Shown here: piece after piece, positions 25,312-40,988 of the stretch | Layout: each line of letters opens with the position of its first letter | How positions within the stretch are numbered: the stretch's first letter is position 1 | Made by a program: the position numbers and the translations under genes | Assembly: GCF_022009635.1 (NCBI RefSeq) | Contig: NZ_CP091716.1 | Coordinates: 7,124,501 to 7,188,500, forward strand | DNA from: Variovorax paradoxus | GTDB lineage: Bacteria; Pseudomonadota; Gammaproteobacteria; Burkholderiales; Burkholderiaceae_C | DNA length: 64,000 bases | Reading direction: 5' to 3' | The notes under the pieces: generated by a model | The model's input: only the letters and a program-made list of their open reading frames with translations | Database searches by the model: none | What the model was told of the DNA's origin: nothing

Positions 25312-26444
25312 TTACTCCGTATCGACAATCTCTACCCAGTTGGCACCTTTGCCAGCCGGCGCACCGGCGACGCGCTTGAGAGCACCGGACTGCGGATTGA
25401 TGGCATAAAGACCCACCTCAGCACTCTTTCCCCCGTCACGACAAGCCAACGGCCGCGAGGGTCGATGGCGATGCCGCGTGGCTGCTTTTCCACCTCGATC
25501 GTGGCCTGGTAGCTCAGCGCTCCGGTCACAGGATCCGCGCGATACGAGGTGACGGTGCTGCTGGTTCGCTCGGTTGTGTAGACAAAGCGTCCATCGGGCG
25601 AGACTTTGATGTCTGCGGCCCAGATCCGCGGCGTGTCATCCACCTTCTCGCCCTGACCCAGCGGCGGGCGGATCAAACCTTTCTCGAGCTTGTAGCGAGC
25701 GGCCGGCACGCCGTCGAAAGATCCCTTCGCGCTCAAGGCGCCTGTCTTGCGATCAATCGCATAGGTGGTCACGGAACCGAACAACTCGCTCAGCACATAC
25801 AGGAAGTTGCCATTGGGCGACGGTGCGGAGTGACGCGGCCCCGACCCCGCCTCGGCAGGCGCAAAGCCTGCATCGATCGGAGCCAGCGCGCCGCTGTGCT
25901 CGTCGAATGCAAATTGCAGCACGCGGTGCACACCGAGGTTTCCGACGTAGACAAAGCGATTGCTGGGGTCCACCACGATCGAATGCGCGTGGCGCCCCGT
26001 CTTGATCAGTTGGAGCGTTTCGCCCTGTGCCACGCCGTTGGGACCAATGGGATTGACGCTGATCACGTCACCGCCGAACGAGGCACCGAACAGATACCTT
26101 CCGCCGCGGTCGGACGAGATGTAAGCCATGCTGTCTGGCAAATTCGCCGTCGCAAGTCGATCAAGCGCACCACTTCGCGCGTCGATCCGATAGGTCACGA
26201 CCGAATAAGGCTGCGACCGCACGGAAGCATAGAGATGCCGACCGTCCGGGCTCAGCGCGAGCGGCATCACCAGTTTTCCCGTCGGCGTCGTGGCAAGCGG
26301 CTGCAGTGTGCCGCCTGCTGCGTCAATGCGGTAACTGGAGATCGTGCCGTCCTCCGCATTCGACACGTAGGCAAATGTTCCGGCGTGGGAGGCTGCGCCA
26401 AGCGACGCGATAGCCAGCAGGACCAGAGGTTTCAGTGATTGCAT
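25312..26444 (-). pseudogene. Seven-bladed propeller lactonase with a C-terminal frameshift
   Basis: A secreted lactonase (6-phosphogluconolactonase/YbhE-like propeller): signal peptide LVLLAIASLGAASHA, then repeated blades such as YVSNAEDGTISSYRIDA and FVYTTERTSSTVTSY. The frame is intact to VVTGE, then changes to unrelated residues and stops at 25332. Adding one base near 25424-25434 (a GGGGGAAAG tract on the minus strand) restores SAEVGLYAINPQSGALKRVA, the last blade, and a TAA at 25312-25314. So it is either a recent single-base deletion or a sequencing error. It would hydrolyse aldono- or aldarolactones, the product of uronate dehydrogenase. It is divergent from nothing and follows SMP-30 on the same strand. 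Confidence 0.8.
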
Positions 26445-26465: not shown

Positions 26466-27579
26466 TCACACGCGCACTTCGGCGCCGCGGGTGTTGACGT
26501 ACAAGCTGTAGATCGAATGACTGGACGCCATGAACAGGCGGTTGTTGTCAACGCCGCCGAAGCACAGGTTGGCGCAGCGTTCCGGCAGGCGGACGTGGCC
26601 GATGGGTTTGCCCTGAGGGTTGAAGACGATCACGCCATCCAACGTTGCGGGGTCCACGCCCGGCATACCGCTCGAACCCCATCCCGCCCAGATGTTGCCG
26701 TCAACGTCGCACTTGATGCCGTCGAGCGCTCCAGCCGGCAAACCGGCATCGACATGCTTGCGCTTGCCCGCGAGGCGGCCGTCTGCCGACACCTCGTAGG
26801 CCCAGATCAGCCGGTGCGGCTGCGCGCGACCCTCGATGACGTACAGCGTCTTCTCATCGGGAGAGAAGCACAGGCCATTGGGGCCCTGAAGGTCGCTGAT
26901 CGCCTGCGTCACCTTGCCGCTTCTGCCGTCGATGCGATAGACCGCGTGCGGCAGTTCCTGCTTACCGATACGCCCCTCGTAGTCGTTGGTCAGTTGAAAT
27001 GGCGGATCCGTGAACCAGATCGATCCATCGGAACGGCAGACGATGTCGTTGGGCGAGTTGAAACGCTTGCCTTCGAAGTTGTCTGCCAACACGGTGATCT
27101 TGCCGCTTGGCTCCGTGCGCACGATTCGACGTCCCACGCCGCCCACTGCCGCCCCTTCGCAAGTGACGAGCCGGCCCTGCGTATCTCGCGTATTGCCATT
27201 GGCGTAGTTGGCAGAGGCGCGGTAGGTCGTGGACTGCCCTGTGGCTTCATCCCAGCGAACAATGCGATTGTTGGCGACGTCGCTGAACAGCAGGTAGTTG
27301 CCGTCGCCCACCCACACAGGGTCCTTCGGCCCAGCGGAAACCCGTCGCCAGCCGTTCCACTCCTGCGCTGTAGAGCCGGTACTTGGCGAACGACGGGTCA
27401 AGGATCTCGATCGCGGGATCGGGGTAGCGCTGCGATGGTGCCCATGCATTTGCGCTATTGCTTTGAGCGCCCGCTGTCTGCGCCAGCGCACCGGCGCCGA
27501 GTGCCAGACCCGCCGCGAGCAGGGTGCGCCGGTCTTTCTTTACGCTCGTCAGCGCGTGCGTACGGCTGTTGATAGCCAT
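26466..27579 (-). pseudogene. SMP-30/gluconolactonase-family lactonase, frameshifted near the start
   Basis: The N-terminus (MAINSRTHALTS, then KKDRRTLLAAGLALGAG, a Tat-like signal peptide) lies in one frame to RWAEGP at about 27318, and the body (VWVGDGNYLLFSDVANNR onward) in another. Removing one base in GGACCCTGTGTGG joins them exactly, so the gene carries a +1 frameshift. The body has the SMP-30 metal-ligand blocks: Glu in the N-terminal WAEGP, Asn in FNSPNDIV or GPNGLCFSPD, and Asp in ALDGIKCDVDG. It would open sugar lactones in the periplasm. It lies upstream of the other broken lactonase on the same strand. Confidence 0.8.
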
Positions 27580-27816
27580 GGAGTCTCCTTGTTGAATCGT
27601 TGATATGAGCCGCGCATGTCGGCGCATGCGCGGTAGTTGGCACGGACGATACGAGCGATGTCAGCAACCGGAAACCGGCGTGCCCGTCTCATGTCCCAAG
27701 GGGTGAGATGCACGCTCCAAAACAAGGGATTGCCCGGAGGAATGGGAAGCGGTTCCGATGCGCCTTCACGCCTTGAAAAGTACATTGGCAGACGTTGTGC
27801 CACCGACTTGCATCTC

Positions 27817-28917: not shown

Positions 28918-29211
28918 TCAGGCCGTGTAGTCCACCGCGGCCCACTCGAAGTAAAGCTTCAGGTCTGCCACCAGTGCCTGATGCAGCGGGTGGAACAGGT
29001 ACTCGTCGAGCGCATTCGCGTCGGCCACCTCAGACTCGAGCACATAGTCCCAGCAGATCGGGCGGTTTACTTCGTTCGCCGCGACATGCCATTTCTGGAT
29101 CGCGGGAATCTGCGCTCCCAACGCCGCCATGCGGTCGGCCAGATCCTTCTCGCGACCTGCATCTTTCTCGACGTCTTGCCTGCGCCGAAACAGAACGACG
29201 TGACGCATCAT
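28918..29211 (-). CDS. Dabb-family (stress-responsive A/B barrel) protein
   Basis: A 97-residue protein beginning MMRHVVLFRR, the usual Dabb strand 1, with HPLHQALVADL near the end. Dabb proteins are small dimeric ferredoxin-like barrels, often found with sugar or aromatic catabolic genes and mostly without a known reaction. The start overlaps the end of the aldehyde dehydrogenase gene (ATG within four bases of its TGA), so it is translated from the same transcript. Confidence 0.78.
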   Translation of the reverse strand: MMRHVVLFRRRQDVEKDAGREKDLADRMAALGAQIPAIQKWHVAANEVNRPICWDYVLESEVADANALDEYLFHPLHQALVADLKLYFEWAAVDYTA

Positions 29212-30644
29212 GCGGGAACCCCCTTGCGGTCGAGAAGCCACTGGGGCGCGTCCTGCAAAGCGACAGGGCGCAGGAAGCGGTCGAGCGCGGCATAGCCGAC
29301 CGAGGTGGTGAACGGGACCGTAGAGGCGGGGAATGGCCCGCCGTGGTGCTGTCCCGCCGTCACAGCAACGCCCGTCGGGAAGCCCGCGAACAGCACACGC
29401 CCGGCGATGCGCGATGCGGCGCGCACCAACGAGACGTTGTCGTCCGTGGGCGCGTCCGCGCCCCAAACGGTGACCGTGAGCGAGCCACCCACCGCGTCCA
29501 GGACATCAATCACCTGCTCGATTCCGGATACACGCACGACGATCGCGGCGGGACCGAAGACCTCCTCATGCAACTTGTGGGATGAAAGGAATCCTTGAGC
29601 ATCGATCTGCGCCAGGTACGGCCGCGGCGACACGTCATCGGCCGCGGCAGGCTCAGCCAACAGCGCCTTCAGTTTCGGTTCGCCAGCCCACTGCGCGCAG
29701 CCCTGGTCAAAACCTTTGCGCATCTGCGGCGTGAGCATCTCGTGTGTCTTGGCGCCACGCAGCGCCTCCGAAAGCTGCGCGACGAAGGCATCGCCACTCT
29801 CGCCCGCGGGCACCAAGACGATGCCGGGGCTGGTGCAGAACTGGCCGGTGCCCATGGTGATGGAGCCGGCCAGCGCTTGCGCCAGTTCGGCCCCCTTCAC
29901 AGCCAGGGCCGCGGGCAATGCGACAACCGGGTTGACGGAGCCAAGCTCGCCATAGAAAGGAATCGGCTGCTTCCGACCACGGGCCGCACTTTCGAGTGCG
30001 AGCCCACCGCGCACCGATCCCGTGAACGCTGCAGCCTGGATGAGCGGATGCTCGACCAGTGCCACGCCGATCTGGGATCCGGGGCCGTCGACCAAGCCCA
30101 GAAGTCCCACCGGCAAGCCCTGCGTCGCAATCACATCGCGGGCCAGCCCTGCGACGGTGTGCGACAGGCCCTGGTGGCCACCGTGTGCCTTCACGATGAC
30201 GGAGCAACCTGCAGCCAGCGCCGAGGCGGTATCGCCACCCAGCACGGAGAACGCGAACGGGAAGTTGCTGGCGCTGAACATTGCAACAGGGCCTACGGGA
30301 ATACGCACCCGAACCAAATGCGGATGGCCCACAGGCGGGCTGCCGGCCACGGCCGGGTCGTCCTCGAAAGCAAAAGCGGCGCCCTGCTCCACCCGCGTTG
30401 CAAAGCCACGCAACTGGAAGGCAGTGCGATCGAGTTCACCGTTGAGTCGCGCCGGACCCAGATGCGTTTCCGAATCGGCCAGCAGGACGAGCCGCTCACG
30501 GTTGTCTTCGAGCACTTGCGCGAGGCCGCGCAGCAATGCCGCGCGGGTTTGCGCGCCGGAACTGGAGAACGACTGGAAGGCTTCGTGCGCTGCCTTGACA
30601 GCGGCATCGACGTCCGCAACGGTGCTTTGGGGATACGACGTCAT
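29208..30644 (-). CDS. Alpha-ketoglutarate semialdehyde dehydrogenase-like aldehyde dehydrogenase (NADP+)
   Basis: A 478-residue ALDH. The catalytic Cys is in GTGQFCTSPGIVL and the general base Glu in FYGELGSVNPV; FSASNFPFAFSVLGGDTASA and ALAAGCSVIVKAHGGHQG are typical of the ketoglutarate-semialdehyde dehydrogenases that end non-phosphorylative pentose, hexarate and hydroxyproline pathways by making 2-oxoglutarate. The protein starts at the DVDAAVKAAHEAF helix and lacks about 25-30 residues present at the N-terminus in the family. A GTG at 30650 overlaps the stop of the preceding gene (GTGA) and could be the true start. The operon continues into the Dabb gene. Confidence 0.82.
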   Translation of the reverse strand: MTSYPQSTVADVDAAVKAAHEAFQSFSSSGAQTRAALLRGLAQVLEDNRERLVLLADSETHLGPARLNGELDRTAFQLRGFATRVEQGAAFAFEDDPAVAGSPPVGHPHLVRVRIPVGPVAMFSASNFPFAFSVLGGDTASALAAGCSVIVKAHGGHQGLSHTVAGLARDVIATQGLPVGLLGLVDGPGSQIGVALVEHPLIQAAAFTGSVRGGLALESAARGRKQPIPFYGELGSVNPVVALPAALAVKGAELAQALAGSITMGTGQFCTSPGIVLVPAGESGDAFVAQLSEALRGAKTHEMLTPQMRKGFDQGCAQWAGEPKLKALLAEPAAADDVSPRPYLAQIDAQGFLSSHKLHEEVFGPAAIVVRVSGIEQVIDVLDAVGGSLTVTVWGADAPTDDNVSLVRAASRIAGRVLFAGFPTGVAVTAGQHHGGPFPASTVPFTTSVGYAALDRFLRPVALQDAPQWLLDRKGVPA

Positions 30645-30646
30645 CG

Positions 30647-31096
30647 TCACGCGCTCTGGAGGTTGTAGCCGCGAGCTGCGTAGTCGAAGCCAACCAGTTC
30701 GTTGATCGGGGTGCTCTTGTCGGCCGGCGACGCGTAGTACGCACGGATCTCCTTGATCCGTCCGTCTTCGAAGTCGTACCACTCGGCGCCACGCAGCGCC
30801 GTGCCGCTCTTGTTCTTCCAGTGGGTCCACTCGATCATGGCCTCCGGCTTGTCATGGCTCACGATGATGCGTTCGATGGTCCATTGCGAGCCCAGCGTCT
30901 CCACGCACCATTGCCACTTCCGGGCGATGGTGTCTGCGCTCTTCCAGGGCACCTCAGGCAGGCCGGAGGGGAAATAGTGCACGGCATCGGGAGTGAAGCA
31001 ATCGACCAGCGCCTGATAGTCGGCGGCGTTGCAGGCATCGAAGTAGCGACGGATCAAGGCGTCGTAGTAATCGGGTGTGTAGGTAGTGGTGGTCAT
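30647..31096 (-). CDS. NTF2-like (SnoaL-type) protein
   Basis: A 149-residue alpha+beta barrel protein: YDALIRRYFDACNAADYQAL, FTPDAVHYFPSGLP and MIEWTHWKNKSGT are typical of the nuclear-transport-factor-2/SnoaL superfamily, whose members bind or isomerise small molecules. The reaction is not predictable. It lies in an operon between the RraA-family gene (30 bases upstream) and the aldehyde dehydrogenase (overlapping), so it probably acts on an intermediate of the same pathway. Confidence 0.75.
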   Translation of the reverse strand: MTTTTYTPDYYDALIRRYFDACNAADYQALVDCFTPDAVHYFPSGLPEVPWKSADTIARKWQWCVETLGSQWTIERIIVSHDKPEAMIEWTHWKNKSGTALRGAEWYDFEDGRIKEIRAYYASPADKSTPINELVGFDYAARGYNLQSA

Positions 31097-31126: not shown

Positions 31127-31930
31127 TCAGCGCTCGCCAGCAGGCTTCGCCGCAGGAATTGGAGGCCGTCCGTCGGCCACCCACTGCTTGTGCTGCTGCC
31201 GCGTGGCGTCGCTGGGCGGATACAGGCCCCACAGGGCTTCGCCGGCCTGCACGCGCAGCGCGAGGTAAGCCTCGATGTCGTCGCGCTTCTCGCACAGGTC
31301 GGCCATCTCTTCAGCCATGTGTGCGGGGATCACAGTGATGTTGTCGCCGTCCCCGTGGATCACGTCGCCCGGGTACACGGCCACGCCGGCGCAACCGATC
31401 GGCACGTTCAGGTCGGCCACATGGTGATAGGACAGTCGGGTGGTCGCGGTGACGCCCGTGCACCAGATCGGAAAGTCCATCTCCGACAGCTCGGTGCCGT
31501 CGCGGAAGGTACCGTCGGTGATCACGCCGCGCGCACCGCGCATCATCATCCGGGTGATCAGCATGTTGCCCATGGACGCCGCGCGGCCGTCCTGGTTGCT
31601 GTCGATCACGAGCACGTGACCCGGCTCGATCTGCTCCACGCCGACCCATTGGAGGTTGTCTGCACTGGGGCTGGTCGTGAGGTTGTCGTAGCGGTCGACA
31701 TCCTCTCGCGCAGGAATGAAGCGCATCGTGTACGCGCGACCCGCGAAGGGCTTCATCTTTTTGCTCAGCGGCGTGAGTCCGTGCAGCACTGGCTGGCGAA
31801 TGCCCTTGATGTAAAGCTGCGTCGTGAGCGAGCCGCTGGTGGCCTTGGCCAGGCGGTCCAGGACCGAATCGGGCACGTGCGGCGCTGCGGGGCGCTGAGG
31901 GATGGAGGCGAGGGGTGCGGCAGGTTGGGT
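31127..31930 (-). CDS. RraA-family protein (HMG/CHA-aldolase type)
   Basis: A 267-residue member of the RraA / 4-hydroxy-4-methyl-2-oxoglutarate aldolase family. The signature is ARGVITDGTFRDG (substrate Arg and metal-binding Asp) with the glycine-rich VYPGDVIHGDGDN strand. Enzymatic members are Mg-dependent class II pyruvate aldolases or oxaloacetate decarboxylases; others inhibit RNase E. In this operon, cleavage of a keto-deoxy sugar acid is the likely job. The ATG at 31930 (MTQPAAPL) is chosen over 31951. It is divergent from the IclR-fusion regulator, which is the probable controller. Confidence 0.78.
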   Translation of the reverse strand, partial: TQPAAPLASIPQRPAAPHVPDSVLDRLAKATSGSLTTQLYIKGIRQPVLHGLTPLSKKMKPFAGRAYTMRFIPAREDVDRYDNLTTSPSADNLQWVGVEQIEPGHVLVIDSNQDGRAASMGNMLITRMMMRGARGVITDGTFRDGTELSEMDFPIWCTGVTATTRLSYHHVADLNVPIGCAGVAVYPGDVIHGDGDNITVIPAHMAEEMADLCEKRDDIEAYLALRVQAGEALWGLYPPSDATRQQHKQWVADGRPPIPAAKPAGER

Positions 31931-31957
31931 CATGGTGGTGGGCAGAAGCAAGACGGC

Positions 31958-32100
31958 TTGTCTCAGATTGTGGGAATCGGATGAGCTGCGGGCTCGTGCC
32001 GATCTCGTGGCGCTATCGTAAGAATGAAGCGCACCAAATAAAATAGGAGCCCTGGCTCAGAGCACCCTAGAGCCCGTTCAAGTACCACCATTTGAGACAA
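31958..32100. promoter_or_regulatory. Divergent promoter region with a spaced inverted repeat
   Basis: TTGTCTCA at 31958-31965 and its exact complement TGAGACAA at 32093-32100 frame the intergenic region between the RraA-family operon and the IclR-fusion gene, the second copy lying directly before its GTG start. They could be two half-sites or operators for the IclR-type regulator. Support is positional only. Confidence 0.3.
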
Positions 32101-32101
32101 A

Positions 32102-33682
32102 GTGACCAAAAACATCGGCGAAGGAACTGGGGCCTTGGAAAAGGCCCTCGACGTGCTCGAGGCGGTAGGCGCGGCGCCTGAGGGTTTGAGCCAGACGGAG
32201 CTGGCCGATCGGTTGGCGATCCCGCGTACCACGGTGTATCGCCTGCTCGCCACGCTGGTGACGCGCGGCTTGCTGAGGCGCGACCAGCTGCGCAAGGTGT
32301 ACTGCCTGGGTTTTCGGTGCTTCGAGATGGCTCGCCAAGCCTATGCGATGCCTGACCTGGTGGCCGCCGCCGCTATCGAGCTCCGTACGTTGCGCGACCT
32401 GACCGGCGAGACCTCCTATCTTGCAGCTCTGGACGGCCGCGAGGTCATTTCGCTCGAGCGCTGCGATGGGGCACACAGCCGGCGCTCGCAGGCTGCGCTC
32501 GGGCAGCGCAAACCCATCCATTGCACCAGTCAAGGCAAAGCCATCCTGTCCGTGCTCGACGAGAGTGCTCGCGAGGCCCTGATACGCGAGCTGAATCTCA
32601 AGCCGCTCACGCAGCACACCATCACCGACCGACGACGGCTGCAGGCCGAACTCAAGGTGACGGCCGCACGCGGCTATGCCATCGACGACGAGGAGATCGT
32701 GCTGGGCGTGCGATGTGTCGGTGCGCCGATTGTCGACACCAATGGACGGGTGCGGGGCGCGATCAGCGTGGCTGGGCCCGCCTACCGGCTCACACCCGAC
32801 CGCCTTCAACTGCTGGGGCCCGAACTTGCCGACGCGGCACGCCGGGTCGGTGCCCAGTTGCATCCCGAGGCCGCCACTGTCCCGAATGGCGCAGCAGAGC
32901 CTGTACCCGGTCACTGGGCGTTTCACGGCGCCTACCCCCTTTGGGACTCGCGGAATCAGTGCCTGTACTGGGCCGACAGGCTTGCGCCCGCGGTGCACTG
33001 CACACTGGGGGGCGTCGACACTGTGCACGCCTCGTTCGAGCAGCCGATCGTCGCCTTGGTGCAGCGCGATGATGCCGTCTGCGCCGTGGTGGGAGAAGCC
33101 ATGGTGGCCATTGACCCGGACGGTTCGACCCGGTCCGTAGACCAACCGATTCCTTCCGGCCTGCGTGCGTTGTGCGATGAAGCCGGCGGTCCTCTCTGGG
33201 CTGCGGTGGAGCAAGCCGGCGTCACGGTGATTGGACAGTTGCAGTCAGATGGAGGCATCAACGTCCAGTGGCGCGTGAGCGAGGCCGTGCAGTGCCTCAA
33301 ATGGCGCTCGGAAGATGCCACTCTTTTCGCAGCAGCGCCCGACACCGGCAGCATTCTCATGCTCAAGCCTGGCACACCAGGCGTGCGTCGACTGGCCACC
33401 ATTCCCAAAGGTTCCGGCTCGGTGAGCGGCTTGGCCTTCGATAGCGAAGGCGGCATCTGGACATGTCTGCAAGGTGGTTGGGGAGTGGTGCGCTTCGCGG
33501 CCGATGGCGGTCTGGACAGGGTGGTGGGGCTGCCCGTGCCCTGCCCGACCGACCTGGCCTTCGACGGCCAGTTCTCCAGCCTATACGTCGCTACGGCGCG
33601 CCAGTCCGTGAGCCTCGAAGTGCTCAACGACGCGCCTTTGTCGGGGAGGCTTTTCAGGATTGCGGGTGGCAGCCCGAACTGA
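32102..33682 (+). CDS. IclR-type regulator fused to a degenerate SMP-30/gluconolactonase propeller
   Basis: A 526-residue fusion starting at a GTG. Residues 1-75 are the IclR winged helix (LSQTELADRLAIPRTTVYRL); 85-250 the IclR effector domain (SLERCDGAHSRRS, IDDEEIVLGVRCVGAPI). From about 265 to the end is an SMP-30-like propeller (YPLWDSRNQCLYWADRLAP, VVRFAADGGLDRVVGLPVP). The SMP-30 metal ligands seem lost: GEGPLW has become GAYPLW, the SNG loop reads VQCLKW and the PDG loop SVSGLAFD. So the propeller probably senses a lactone rather than hydrolyses it. It is divergent from the RraA-family operon and near two other regulators. Confidence 0.85.
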   Translation: MTKNIGEGTGALEKALDVLEAVGAAPEGLSQTELADRLAIPRTTVYRLLATLVTRGLLRRDQLRKVYCLGFRCFEMARQAYAMPDLVAAAAIELRTLRDLTGETSYLAALDGREVISLERCDGAHSRRSQAALGQRKPIHCTSQGKAILSVLDESAREALIRELNLKPLTQHTITDRRRLQAELKVTAARGYAIDDEEIVLGVRCVGAPIVDTNGRVRGAISVAGPAYRLTPDRLQLLGPELADAARRVGAQLHPEAATVPNGAAEPVPGHWAFHGAYPLWDSRNQCLYWADRLAPAVHCTLGGVDTVHASFEQPIVALVQRDDAVCAVVGEAMVAIDPDGSTRSVDQPIPSGLRALCDEAGGPLWAAVEQAGVTVIGQLQSDGGINVQWRVSEAVQCLKWRSEDATLFAAAPDTGSILMLKPGTPGVRRLATIPKGSGSVSGLAFDSEGGIWTCLQGGWGVVRFAADGGLDRVVGLPVPCPTDLAFDGQFSSLYVATARQSVSLEVLNDAPLSGRLFRIAGGSPN

Positions 33683-37676: not shown

Positions 37677-38558
37677 TCAGCGCACGCCGGCCGCTTGAAG
37701 CAGACCGCGGGTGTAGCCCAATGCGAACGACATGAAGCGCTCGCGCCCTTCGTCGATTTCCGACACGGGAACATGATCAGGGCACAGGGGCCCCGCATAG
37801 CCACCACGCTGGTAAGCCTTCACTGCTTCATACATGTCGACGTCGCCCTCGTCGGGAAACACTTCCTGAAAGTCGAGGTAGCCGCCACGAATGTTGCGGA
37901 AATGGACCATGAAGATTCGGCCGGTCGAAGCGAATTCCTCAATCACGGGAATCATGTGTTTGCCTGGCTCCTTGAACATCTCAGCCACGGTGCCCTGGCA
38001 GAAATTCAAGCCATGGTTCTTGCTGGACGAAAGCGCGAGAAATCGTCGAATCCCGTCAGCAGAGCCCACGACGTGTTCGATACCGTTCAGGCCTCCCACT
38101 GGGTACGCCGGGTCGTGCGGGTGACAAGCGAGCCGCACCCCTGCCTTGTCAGCGGCCGGCACCAGCCCTTCCACCAGAAACTCGATGGCGTCCCAGCCGG
38201 CCTTTTCCGTCACGGGCGGTACTTCACGCGCCATCTTCTGGCCACACAATGCCGCCGATGCAGATCCGCCCTCTTCCTGGTTGCTGGGGTAGCCAACCCC
38301 CCAGTACGAGTGCTTGCGATCTTCATCGGCCGAATATTCGGCATACACGAAGCCAGAGTTCTGAGCACCACCGCGTCCGGGCTTAAGGCCGGTGCGGGTG
38401 ATGCCGACCATCTGCACGTTGTACTTGAGGCAGGTGATCCCAGCGTCGGCGGCCTTCTGGATGTTGGCTGCAAGCATCGCGCGCTGCTTACGCGCGCCGT
38501 CGAGGTCCGTGAGCGAGTCGAGCAGGATCGAGCCCACGTCGAGGGCGAAAACGTCGAG
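37677..38558 (-). pseudogene. Mannonate dehydratase (UxuA-like), 5' end lost to IS3
   Basis: About 294 codons of a TIM-barrel dehydratase remain: RLACHPHDPAYPVGGLNGIE, GLNFCQGTVAEMF, IFMVHFRNIRGGYLDFQE and a GPLCPDHVP tail match the UxuA/mannonate dehydratase family, including the His, Cys and Asp metal-ligand positions. The N-terminal strands are gone: native coding sequence starts at LDVFALDVGSIL, immediately after the IS3 end at 38559. The remaining gene has no start of its own and is probably dead. It would have dehydrated mannonate to 2-keto-3-deoxygluconate. Confidence 0.82.
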
Positions 38559-38608
38559 TGAATCGCCCCGGATTTTGTGGAGGCTCAACACTCTGAGAGG
38601 ATTGAGCC

Positions 38609-38932
38609 ATGAAGAAGTCGAACAAGTTCTCACCCGAGGTGCGTGAGCGCGCAGTGAGGATGGTGCAGGAGCACCGTGGGGAATACCCGTCGCTGTGGGC
38701 GGCGATCGAGTCGATTGCACCGAAGATCGGCTGCGTGCCGCAGACGCTGAACGAATGGGTCAAGCGTGATGAGGTCGACAACGGCGTTCGAGAAGGCGTG
38801 ACGACCAGCGAGTCCCAGCGGATGAAGGAGCTCGAACGCGAGGTCAAGGAACTGCGCCGAGCCAACGAGATCCTGAAGCTGGCGAGCGCGTTTTTCGCCC
38901 AGGCGGAGCTCGACCGCCGGCTGAAGTCCTGA
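38609..38932 (+). CDS. IS3-family transposase OrfA
   Basis: A 107-residue helix-turn-helix protein ([34 protein letters not shown]) with a C-terminal leucine-zipper-like helix ([20 protein letters not shown]). It precedes orfB in the +/-1 arrangement usual for IS3, where a ribosomal frameshift produces the OrfAB transposase. A run of five T residues at 38891-38895 lies near the overlap and may be the slippery site. Confidence 0.88.
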
Positions 38933-39537
38933 GGGATTTCATCGACAGGCATCGTGCCACCTTCGGGGTCGAGCCGATCTGCAGGGTCTTGCAGGTCGCC
39001 CCGTCGGGCTACCGGCGGCACGCGGCGCTGCTGCGCGAGCCGCATAAGCGCTGCGCCAGAGCACTCCGCGACGATGTCCTCATTCCGGCGATACAGCGCG
39101 TCTGGCAGGCCAACATGCAGGTCTATGGGGCCGACAAGGTCTGGAGGCAACTGGCGCGCGAGGGCACGACGGTGGCCCGCTGCACGGTCGAGCGGCTGAT
39201 GCGGCGCCTGGGGCTGAGAGGTGTGATGCGCGGCAAGGTGGTGAAGACCACTATCAGCAACTCCAGAGCACCATGCCCGCTGGATCGGGTCAACCGGCAG
39301 TTCCGAGCGCAGCGCCCGAACCAGCTGTGGGTCTCGGATTTCACGTACGTGTCGACATGGCAGGGCTGGCTGTACGTCGCCTTCGTGATCGATGTGTTCG
39401 CCCGACGCATCGTGGGCTGGCGGGTCAGCAGCTCGATGCGCACGGACTTCGTGCTCGATGCTTTGGAGCAAGCGCTGTACGACCGTCAACCCGAACGCGA
39501 CGGCAGCTTGATTTGTCACTCCGATCGTGGCTCGCAA
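38929..39537 (+). pseudogene. IS3-family transposase OrfB, 5' part (split by IS30)
   Basis: The frame reads [20 protein letters not shown], an HTH_21 region (YGADKVWRQLAREGTTVARC) and then the rve integrase core with the first two catalytic Asp residues in WVSDFTYVSTW and CHSDRGSQ. It stops being homologous after GSQ at 39537, where the IS30 inverted repeat begins. The remainder is found at 40989-41294. No conventional start is seen, consistent with frameshift expression from orfA. Confidence 0.85.
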
Positions 39538-40988
39538 GGCGTATTCAACCGGTCGTCGCAACACTTCATTCATGGAGGTGTTTATGGGACGACCCGCGGG
39601 GTGGATGCAGAAGTTAACGGGGCGAGGCGCAATGCGCTCACCCGGTGCTCCTTCGCTTCGGCGAGAGGTGGAGCGGCAATTCTGGGAACAGATTGCCACC
39701 GGAATCACGAGTGAGAAGGCTGCCGAAGCCGTTGGCGTGTCAACGCCGGTGGGCACGCGTTGGTTCCGTCATCGTGGCGGTATGCCACTGTTCATGTCGC
39801 ATCCCACATCGGGAAGGTATCTGTCATTCTCCGAGCGAGAAGAGATTGCTCTTCTGCGGGCCCAAGAGGTTGGGGTGAGGGAGATCGCTCGCCGTATCGG
39901 GCGAAGTCCCTCGACGGTCTCACGGGAGCTGACCCGCAATGCTGCGACTCGCAGGGGCAAGCTCGAGTATCGAGCGTCGGTTGCGCAGTGGAAGTCCGAG
40001 CTGGTGGCCAGAAGGCCCAAGCCCGCCAAACTGTTGATGAACCCCCGTCTGCGTCAATATGTTCAAGACCGCCTGGAGGGCAAGATCCACGATGCTCAAG
40101 GACGCGAGGTCACCGGGCCTCGGCAAGCGGCGTTCATCGGCCGCAACAAGCCTCATCGTGGTGATCGCAAGTGGGTCAATGGCTGGTCGCCCGAGCAGAT
40201 TGCCAACCGGCTGCAGGTCGACTTCCCGGATGATCAGTCCATGCGCATTTCCCACGAAGCCATCTACCAAGCCCTCTACATTCAGGGGCGAGGTGCTCTC
40301 AAGCGCGAGCTGGTGAGCTATCTGCGTATGGGGCGTGCGTTGCGCGTGCCACGGGCCAGGGCTCAGGCTACAGCGTGGGCTCATGTCAGCGAGGAGGTGA
40401 TGATCTCCAGCCGACCTGCAGAGGCAGAAGATCGTGCCGTGCCGGGTCACTGGGAGGGAGACTTGATCATCGGCCTGGACAGGTCCGCCATCGGGACGCT
40501 GGTGGAGCGATCAAGCCGCTTCACTATGCTCGTGCACTTGCCTCGCGAAGCAGGCTATCGACTGACGCCCCGGACGAAGAACGGTCCTGCACTCTCGGGC
40601 TACGGAGCCGTCACGATGGCCAATGCACTCAAAAGAACCGTGGCCACGCTGCCCGCCGAGCTATGGCAATCATTGACATGGGATCGTGGCAAGGAACTCT
40701 CCGACCATGCGCGGTTCAGTATCGAGTCCGGAGTGCGTGTCTTCTTCGCCGATCCTCGCAGCCCATGGCAGCGCGGCACGAACGAGAACACGAACGGTCT
40801 GCTGCGCCAGTACTTCCCAAAAGGAACAGATCTGTCTCGCTGGAGCGAGCAGGAGATTCAAGCCGTGGCTCGGACCTTGAACAACAGGCCGCGTAAAACG
40901 CTGGGCTGGAAGACACCGGCCGAGACTTTGAACCAGTACCTAAAATCCGTTCGACAACCCGGTGTTGCGACGACCGGTTGAATACGCC
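39538..40988 (+). mobile_element. IS30-family insertion sequence with 27-bp perfect inverted repeats
   Basis: Left repeat starts GGCGTATTCAACCGGTCGTC at 39538 and the right repeat, its exact complement, ends at 40988; both match over 27 bases. The 3-base target CAA is duplicated at 39535-39537 and 40989-40991. Removing the element and one CAA restores the host IS3 orfB frame (HSDRGSQ then YVSIRYTERLGEA). The element is therefore a clean, relatively recent insertion and encodes an intact transposase. Confidence 0.92.
39584..40981 (+). CDS. IS30-family transposase
   Basis: A 465-residue DDE transposase. The N-terminus (MGRPAGWMQKLTGRGAMRSP) is typical, with GGAGGT 6 bases before the ATG. The helix-turn-helix is REIARRIGRSPSTVSRELTR; the catalytic domain shows HWEGDLIIG (Asp), TWDRGKEL (Asp) and NENTNGLLRQYFP (Glu). 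Full length, no lesion, so likely active. Its stop codon lies inside the right inverted repeat. Confidence 0.93.
   Translation: MGRPAGWMQKLTGRGAMRSPGAPSLRREVERQFWEQIATGITSEKAAEAVGVSTPVGTRWFRHRGGMPLFMSHPTSGRYLSFSEREEIALLRAQEVGVREIARRIGRSPSTVSRELTRNAATRRGKLEYRASVAQWKSELVARRPKPAKLLMNPRLRQYVQDRLEGKIHDAQGREVTGPRQAAFIGRNKPHRGDRKWVNGWSPEQIANRLQVDFPDDQSMRISHEAIYQALYIQGRGALKRELVSYLRMGRALRVPRARAQATAWAHVSEEVMISSRPAEAEDRAVPGHWEGDLIIGLDRSAIGTLVERSSRFTMLVHLPREAGYRLTPRTKNGPALSGYGAVTMANALKRTVATLPAELWQSLTWDRGKELSDHARFSIESGVRVFFADPRSPWQRGTNENTNGLLRQYFPKGTDLSRWSEQEIQAVARTLNNRPRKTLGWKTPAETLNQYLKSVRQPGVATTG

Follow-up and report, generated by a model that had tools for sequence, protein, structure and literature searches.

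A metal-site-deficient SMP-30 propeller on an IclR-type regulator divergent from an RraA/NTF2 operon in Variovorax paradoxus

Architecture of the fusion regulator

The window, by which we mean the whole stretch of 64,000 nucleotides of Variovorax paradoxus DNA that was analysed (contig NZ_CP091716.1, positions 7,124,501 to 7,188,500), contains at 32102..33682 on the forward strand a single open frame with a GTG start, which encodes an IclR-SGL fusion regulator of 526 residues. The protein belongs to the IclR family by two domains that both exceed their Pfam cut-offs, namely an HTH_IclR winged helix (PF09339, residues 11-61, 32132..32284, forward strand; 63.1 bits, cut-off 22) and an IclR_C effector domain (PF01614, residues 85-249, 32354..32848, forward strand; 139.2 bits, cut-off 24). 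These are followed by an SMP-30/SGL propeller at residues 272-520 (32915..33661, forward strand; blades assigned by hand), in which the Pfam SGL profile (PF08450) is covered over its full length (window residues 279-500, profile positions 5-246 of 246, 68.4 bits, cut-off 26.3). The same profile was matched at E 0.01 by all 14 members of alignment A1, and in the PDB the IclR part matched 1mkm (E 1.6e-30) and the propeller the SMP-30 protein 7plb (E 2.9e-10). The preliminary description of this DNA, which had read the gene as an IclR winged helix and effector domain continued by a full SMP-30 propeller, is thus borne out by one 526-residue protein with three Pfam domains.

Among NCBIfam models, the top scores were those of BhcR, PcaR/PobR and KdgR, all of them under their cut-offs. 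Single-sequence AlphaFold predictions gave a mean pLDDT of 38 for the full length and 46 for the propeller alone, too poor for use. The IclR-SGL domain order is already present in public annotation, where such fusions are named 'IclR family transcriptional regulator C-terminal domain-containing protein' or 'SMP-30/gluconolactonase/LRE family protein'. The winged helix and IclR_C are common to the fusion and to IclR regulators of the KdgR, BhcR and PcaR/PobR types; ordinary members of the family, however, end after IclR_C, and the stand-alone IclRs fetched for comparison are 253-280 residues long, whereas the window protein has an extra propeller of about 250 residues.

The divergent operon and its surroundings

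Back to back with the fusion, on the reverse strand, lie an RraA-like gene (31127..31951; PF03737, with NF006093 above cut-off), which is the first of the divergent operon, an NTF2/SnoaL-like gene (30647..31096; PF12680, PDB relative 3g16), an aldehyde dehydrogenase (ALDH) gene (29208..30650 for the part compared, in a frame that runs to 30830; PF00171), and a Dabb domain gene (28918..29202; PF07876). All four genes from which the regulator had been said to diverge are, therefore, in place. Also near the fusion are genes for a stand-alone SGL protein, a seven-bladed lactonase, an Ldh_2 protein, a LacI-type regulator, an L-arabinonate dehydratase-type protein (NF009559 above cut-off), and a UxuA-like protein.

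Two of these neighbours are irregular. The stand-alone SGL gene (26466-27627, reverse strand) is seemingly split over two frames, with everything up to 'FRWAEGP' in one and the remainder, beginning near 27300, in the other. A MAG contig named 'Lautropia sp. SCN 69-89' is identical to the window over 11,773 bases, and because it is identical over the stretch covered, the frame change is present in both records; the identical match stops at 38657. For the UxuA-like gene, in the stretch 37677-40981, only the latter half of the profile is matched, and transposase genes lie directly against it (38609-39714 and 39527-40981, which we take to be IS3-like and IS30-like), as if its start had been cut by an insertion.

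Fusions with and without the site residues

In the 4gn7 alignment, regucalcin positions 18, 101, 103, 104, 121, 154, and 204 are E, R, N, D, E, N, and D, which we take to be the metal and substrate residues, and the window was aligned to these columns through its relatives. At four positions that mark SMP-30/gluconolactonase enzymes (Glu18, Asn103, Asn154, and Asp204), the window has A277 (32930..32932), R355 (33164..33166, where the alignment is loose), Q397 (33290..33292), and S442 (33425..33427), respectively, all on the forward strand.

A survey of IclR-SGL fusions, as the preliminary description had proposed, found the architecture in other genomes and on plasmids, and 51 unbroken fusions were read. 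None of the four residues is present in 28 of these (the window's class, hereafter dead), all four are present in 22 (hereafter intact), and one has three. The first residue table comprised 26 dead-class fusions (the window, L010-L012, L014-L018, L056-L063, and L105-L113), each with none of the four, and 13 sister fusions (L019-L021, L023, L024, L064, L065, L097, L115, L116, L119, L121, and L122), each with all four. Twelve fusions read later added two with none (L192 and L175), one with three (L197), and nine with all four (L182, L193, L194, L181, L195, L196, and L198-L200). The replacement of the metal ligands that had been claimed for the window thus holds throughout the 26 unbroken members of its class, as well as in L192 and L175. 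For comparison, Asn at the N154 column and Asp at the D204 column were found in 37/37 stand-alone SGLs. The window fusion is not a member of the metal-intact class, as the four residues are not kept and it does not lie on the intact IclR branch described below.

A strict division into dead and intact fusions is ruled out by L197 (IAI59_RS19885, on plasmid p546-2 of Roseomonas haemaphysalidis), the sole mixed case among the fusions read, which keeps three residues and has Asn at the D204 position; it shows that single residues can change in the non-dead class too. Two interrupted copies, L013 (genome G029, in-frame TAG) and L114 (genome G663, TAA), stand outside the set of unbroken proteins and inside the gene-neighbour and operator counts; L114 is likewise without the four site residues. 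L119, in which the IclR part is only partial, is in the residue table and was left out of trees and rates, and L175, L181, and L195-L200 were counted for residues and neighbours and are outside the trees, rates, and conservation sets.

Several other candidates were set aside. The match of L022 starts at the propeller with no IclR in the 20-kb locus, and that of L052 spans only 270 residues; both are long open frames that contain a stand-alone SGL. The own-genome SGL frames L004 and L006 (501 and 522 residues) are not fusions, L117, L118, and L120 are without an IclR match, and in L201 an IclR is present and SGL is absent from the frame.

Distribution and gene neighbours

A search with the propeller alone (150 relatives) returned nine more proteins from the same genus at 45-54% identity together with a further group of fusions at about 30% identity. 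In a plasmid collection, 220 records had a match, and ten loci from the best 40 of the 220 were fetched first, with hosts in Microvirga, Bosea, Bradyrhizobium, Sinorhizobium, Phyllobacterium, Agrobacterium, Burkholderia, Variovorax, and Rhizobium. Members of the window's genus also have proteins that closely resemble one from a plasmid of Variovorax boronicumulans. With the dead-class alignment as query, 15/299 family genomes matched at E ≤ 1e-30, and 11 of those 15 (the window's own included) carry a dead-class fusion, which in one genome has a broken frame. Matches were found in 9/369 genomes of a class sample (E ≤ 1e-20) and 11/398 of a phylum sample (E ≤ 1e-30); the sole dead-class match among those listed was the window's own, and the remainder were three intact-class fusions and stand-alone SGLs. 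The dead class thus appears to be sparse, given the few matches in the family, class, and phylum samples.

Both an RraA and an NTF2 gene were found nearby in 24/30 dead loci (window included) and in 0/23 other fusion loci, some of which are short contigs or have short flanks. When the fetched stretches were searched by tblastn with the window proteins, the pair was present at 9/9 window-group, 8/8 plasmid, and 5/10 further family loci, and two of the five negative family loci have an ALDH of 63-65% identity adjoining the regulator. The pair is present near L175 and absent near L192. Neighbours of the metal-intact fusions are sugar ABC transporter genes and 2-dehydro-3-deoxygalactonate genes; L182, for example, is ATU_RS26100 on plasmid At of the well-known strain Agrobacterium fabrum C58, a metal-intact fusion within a sugar ABC transporter cluster.

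A facing pair of operator-like sites

In the genus of the window, two facing GTCTCAnnnnGTGG sites flank the promoter region common to the fusion and the RraA gene. In the window these are copies of TTGTCTCAnnnnGTGG, one before RraA (31958..31975, forward strand) and the other, facing it, directly before the start codon of the fusion (32083..32100, reverse strand). With the 18-base pattern and up to three mismatches, the fusion-RraA gap holds two matches against 0.01 expected, and the starts of the copies are 126-129 bases apart in 10/10 window-group loci, with 0-2 mismatches in each copy. In L175 the 14-base cores are 126 bases apart, as they are in L041-L043. Exact TTGTCTCAnnnnGTGG occurs only twice in the 7.95-Mb genome, both times in the fusion-RraA gap, and the regulon therefore looks mainly local. 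When one mismatch is tolerated, the genomic total rises to 13 sites (11 more), against 6 for a reversed control, so further operator sites are possible.

The operator core, the pattern of which was widened once the sites had been seen, is present in 17/30 dead upstream regions, three alphaproteobacterial plasmids among them, against 0.25 expected from two-base-block shuffles. It was found in none of 12 readable intact upstream regions (of 15 given), one of which comprises just 148 bases. Outside the window's group, weak pairs are 79-126 bases apart, compared with 126-129 in the genus, and looping by phased operators is accordingly offered here as a suggestion and nothing firmer. We regard the facing pair as operator-like and as candidate sites for the fusion. 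Between the copies (31976-32082), a box AAAATAGAAT is present in L040-L048, which make up 9 of 13 aligned rows, with a variant in the window; it may be a promoter element.

Origin of the fusions

On an IclR-domain tree that includes 22 IclRs from the genome of the window, the dead and the intact fusions form one branch each, and fused versus alone amounts to one change. A larger IclR-domain tree, with 19 stand-alone IclRs for comparison (nine from plasmids and ten own, the other 12 of the 22 own IclRs being left out), places 42 fusions on one branch (support 98/92), comprising a dead branch of 27 (100/99) and an intact branch of 15 (99/97). Four fusions were fetched for this tree, of which the three that keep the residues fell on the intact branch and L192, which does not, on the dead branch. 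Three stand-alone IclRs branch beside the fusions (support 92/85), and two of the three adjoin 2-dehydro-3-deoxygalactonokinase genes. The SGL tree alone does not settle on a single fusion, as fused and stand-alone intact SGLs intermix in it; a single fusion clade could not be rejected (p 0.32). Because all fusions, and each of the two classes, are monophyletic on the IclR-domain trees, a single fusion and a single near-complete loss are enough, and the simplest history would be a single fusion with a working lactonase, followed by a single loss of the site.

Retention and rate of the dead propeller

With the IclR domain as query, 9/200 family genomes (own included) matched at E ≤ 1e-44, in a sample that overlaps the 299 genomes above; all of the frames are at least 528 residues long, and one (G663) has a TAA inside. 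In the genus, 16/101 genomes matched at E ≤ 1e-40 in 17 places, of which 11 are at least 80% identical (dead class) and 6 are 38-41% identical (intact class), with frames of at least 537 residues except for the window's own (528) and that of G029 (325, cut by the stop). Among the matches listed, the propeller accompanies the IclR domain in 9/9 family genomes and 17/17 genus places, counts that include the stop-cut genus copy and the family copy with an internal TAA; across these 200 family and 101 genus genomes, again among the matches listed, no copy of the IclR domain lacked propeller sequence behind it. The frame is unbroken in 28 dead-class sequences from Alpha- and Betaproteobacteria.

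The dead propeller has dN/dS values of 0.09-0.45 in six pairs, all below 1 and indicative of purifying selection, and 2.3 to 4.2 times those of the IclR part in the same pair, whereas the intact propeller has values of 0.03-0.11 in four pairs, under those of the IclR part; all of these values are rough, since several pairs have a synonymous distance above 1. Protein distances show the same contrast. In 325/325 dead-class pairs the propeller is more diverged than the IclR domain of the same proteins (ratio 1.18-9.72, median 2.12), and in 66/66 intact-class pairs it is less diverged (0.23-0.97, median 0.82). Selection on the dead propeller is purifying but relaxed. That the site has been lost in the examined members of the branch, yet the domain has been retained, suggests that an enzyme has been turned into a regulatory part.

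A conserved face on the dead propeller

In the dead class, the columns of E18, N103, N154, and D204 lie at the 54th, 22nd, 29th, and 47th percentiles of conservation, respectively, compared with 82-95 in intact fusions and 94-98 in stand-alone SGLs (L004-L007 were omitted from these sets). The D204 position is occupied by S, G, R, C, A, or L, and the position of regucalcin Arg101 is likewise poorly conserved and varied. These spots are not free to vary everywhere, however, because the E18 column reaches the 69th percentile (mostly Ala) in the betaproteobacterial dead rows and the D204 column the 79th (R, C) in seven alphaproteobacterial dead rows.

Blades and loops were placed on the window sequence manually, not from a structure. 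On this layout the upper loops of the dead class, on the face of the former site, have a conservation of 0.58 against 0.42 for the lower loops, a difference reached in 0/10,000 permutations, which assume independent columns. No such bias is present in intact fusions (0.67 versus 0.67) or stand-alone SGLs (0.47 versus 0.50). When the blade-6 loop, which is partly gapped in intact fusions and stand-alone SGLs, is left out, the dead class still gives 0.56 against 0.42 (p 0.0001), with p 0.10 and 0.62 in the other two sets. Within the dead class, blades 6 and 1 show the widest upper-lower gap, blade 2 a slight one, and blade 3 the opposite order; conservation peaks in the upper loops of blade 5.

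At the level of residues, R500 is found in 26/26 dead fusions, 4/13 intact fusions, and 17/37 stand-alone SGLs; K/R436 is found in 25/26 dead fusions, a position at which 8/13 intact fusions have Ala; and S438 and F274 are found in 22/26 and 24/26 dead fusions, respectively. W460, P296, and P478-T483 are conserved face residues common to the intact sister class, and the core blade residues W290, D292, W366, D447, and W453 are kept in the dead class. Such a conserved loop face around the former site, mostly of blades 1, 5, and 6, is compatible with a reworked site for a ligand or a partner.

Discussion

Taken together, the locus, its relatives, and the operator-like pair support the view that a local operon regulator carries a dead SMP-30 propeller. 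We lean towards reading the protein as a local regulator of the RraA/NTF2/ALDH operon that has an IclR_C effector and a non-enzymatic accessory propeller with a binding face. As a dedicated regulator of this sugar-acid operon, it would bind the two facing operator copies through its IclR winged helix and thereby control both the operon and its own gene. The main effector would probably be bound in the slowly evolving IclR_C, as in other IclR proteins, and would probably be a sugar acid or a 2-keto-3-deoxy acid. The propeller would descend from a working SMP-30 lactonase joined to an ancestral IclR regulator; in the window's branch, the metal site would have been fully lost and the propeller retained in a presumably non-enzymatic form, whose conserved face, mostly of blades 1, 5, and 6, may bind a metabolite or partner and so adjust the regulator. 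Some observations speak against this explanation: the faster divergence of the propeller in 325/325 pairs also fits a loosely constrained scaffold, 6/30 dead loci are without RraA and NTF2 nearby, and 13/30 upstream regions are without the operator core.

The preliminary description had proposed a different role, in which an aldonolactone of the pathway still binds where the substrate once did, in the dead pocket, and its presence is passed on to the IclR part. A site that was lost while its domain was not, together with a conserved upper face, would agree with such a sensor, and two separate lactonase-type genes in the cluster (25332-26444 and 26466-27491) suggest that the pathway includes a lactone. 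This proposal is, nonetheless, weakened by the four site columns themselves, which have fallen from the 82nd-98th percentiles to the 22nd-54th and are varied, as is the Arg101 position, and also by the propeller outpacing the rest of the protein, so that we now consider it unlikely. A reworked binding face beside an ordinary IclR pocket fits better than a lactone sensor in the old site, and it is possible that the regulator has two ligand domains.

Alternatively, the propeller might be purely structural and bind no ligand, serving oligomer state or stability and possibly allowing two dimers to hold both sites. Fast divergence with the core blade residues kept is what might be seen in such a part, and the near-fixed spacing of the site pair in the genus points the same way, but outside the genus this spacing does not hold, conservation favours one face, and some of the conserved residues (R500 and K/R436) are less well kept in intact fusions, all of which leads us to doubt a structural role as the whole explanation. 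Least credible by far is that the propeller is a decaying relic in the course of being lost, because its relaxed rate and the in-frame stops in G029 and G663, which assembly errors may explain, are set against dN/dS values below 1 in 6/6 pairs, 28 unbroken frames across Alpha- and Betaproteobacteria, and, among the matches listed, no propeller-less copy of this IclR in 200 family and 101 genus genomes.

The accessory propeller with a binding face, which we prefer, may be taken one step further, although only tentatively. Perhaps the lactonase, once fused, turned into a sensing domain without catalysis, the rebuilt face of which (K/R436, S438, R500, and F274 beside the inherited W460) binds an acidic pathway compound or an enzyme of the operon, such that the regulator would read one signal through IclR_C and a second through the propeller, while the sister class would still couple lactone hydrolysis to regulation in one chain.

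Regulators with enzyme-derived domains include MocR/GabR (aminotransferase fold), ROK repressors (kinase fold), and trigger enzymes, and in all of these, as in the window fusion, an enzyme fold is part of a transcription factor. The window fusion differs from them in that its fold is a lactonase propeller, an IclR effector domain is also there, and sensing is putative. From the SMP-30/gluconolactonase/regucalcin proteins (3g4e, 4gn7; 7plb), its propeller keeps the length of the SGL profile and the blade motifs; unlike the enzymes, it is without E18, N103, N154, and D204 and is joined to a DNA-binding regulator. The metal-intact fusions (for example ATU_RS26100 and Variovorax boronicumulans WP_319361446.1) have the same domain order and lie on the sister IclR branch, but differ in having all four residues, a slower propeller, and other neighbour genes.

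What is added here is the split into metal-intact and metal-dead fusions, the link of the dead class to an operon and an operator, and the contrast in evolutionary rate. The RraA/NTF2 sugar-acid operon thereby gains a candidate regulator and a candidate operator. Sister classes of a single fused regulator, one with the site residues and the other devoid of them, are in effect a matched natural experiment, and because both exist, even within a single genome, the question of how an enzyme becomes a regulatory domain is directly testable. That genome, G1170 of the window's genus, carries both a metal-dead (L175) and a metal-intact (L181) fusion, each confirmed by its residues.
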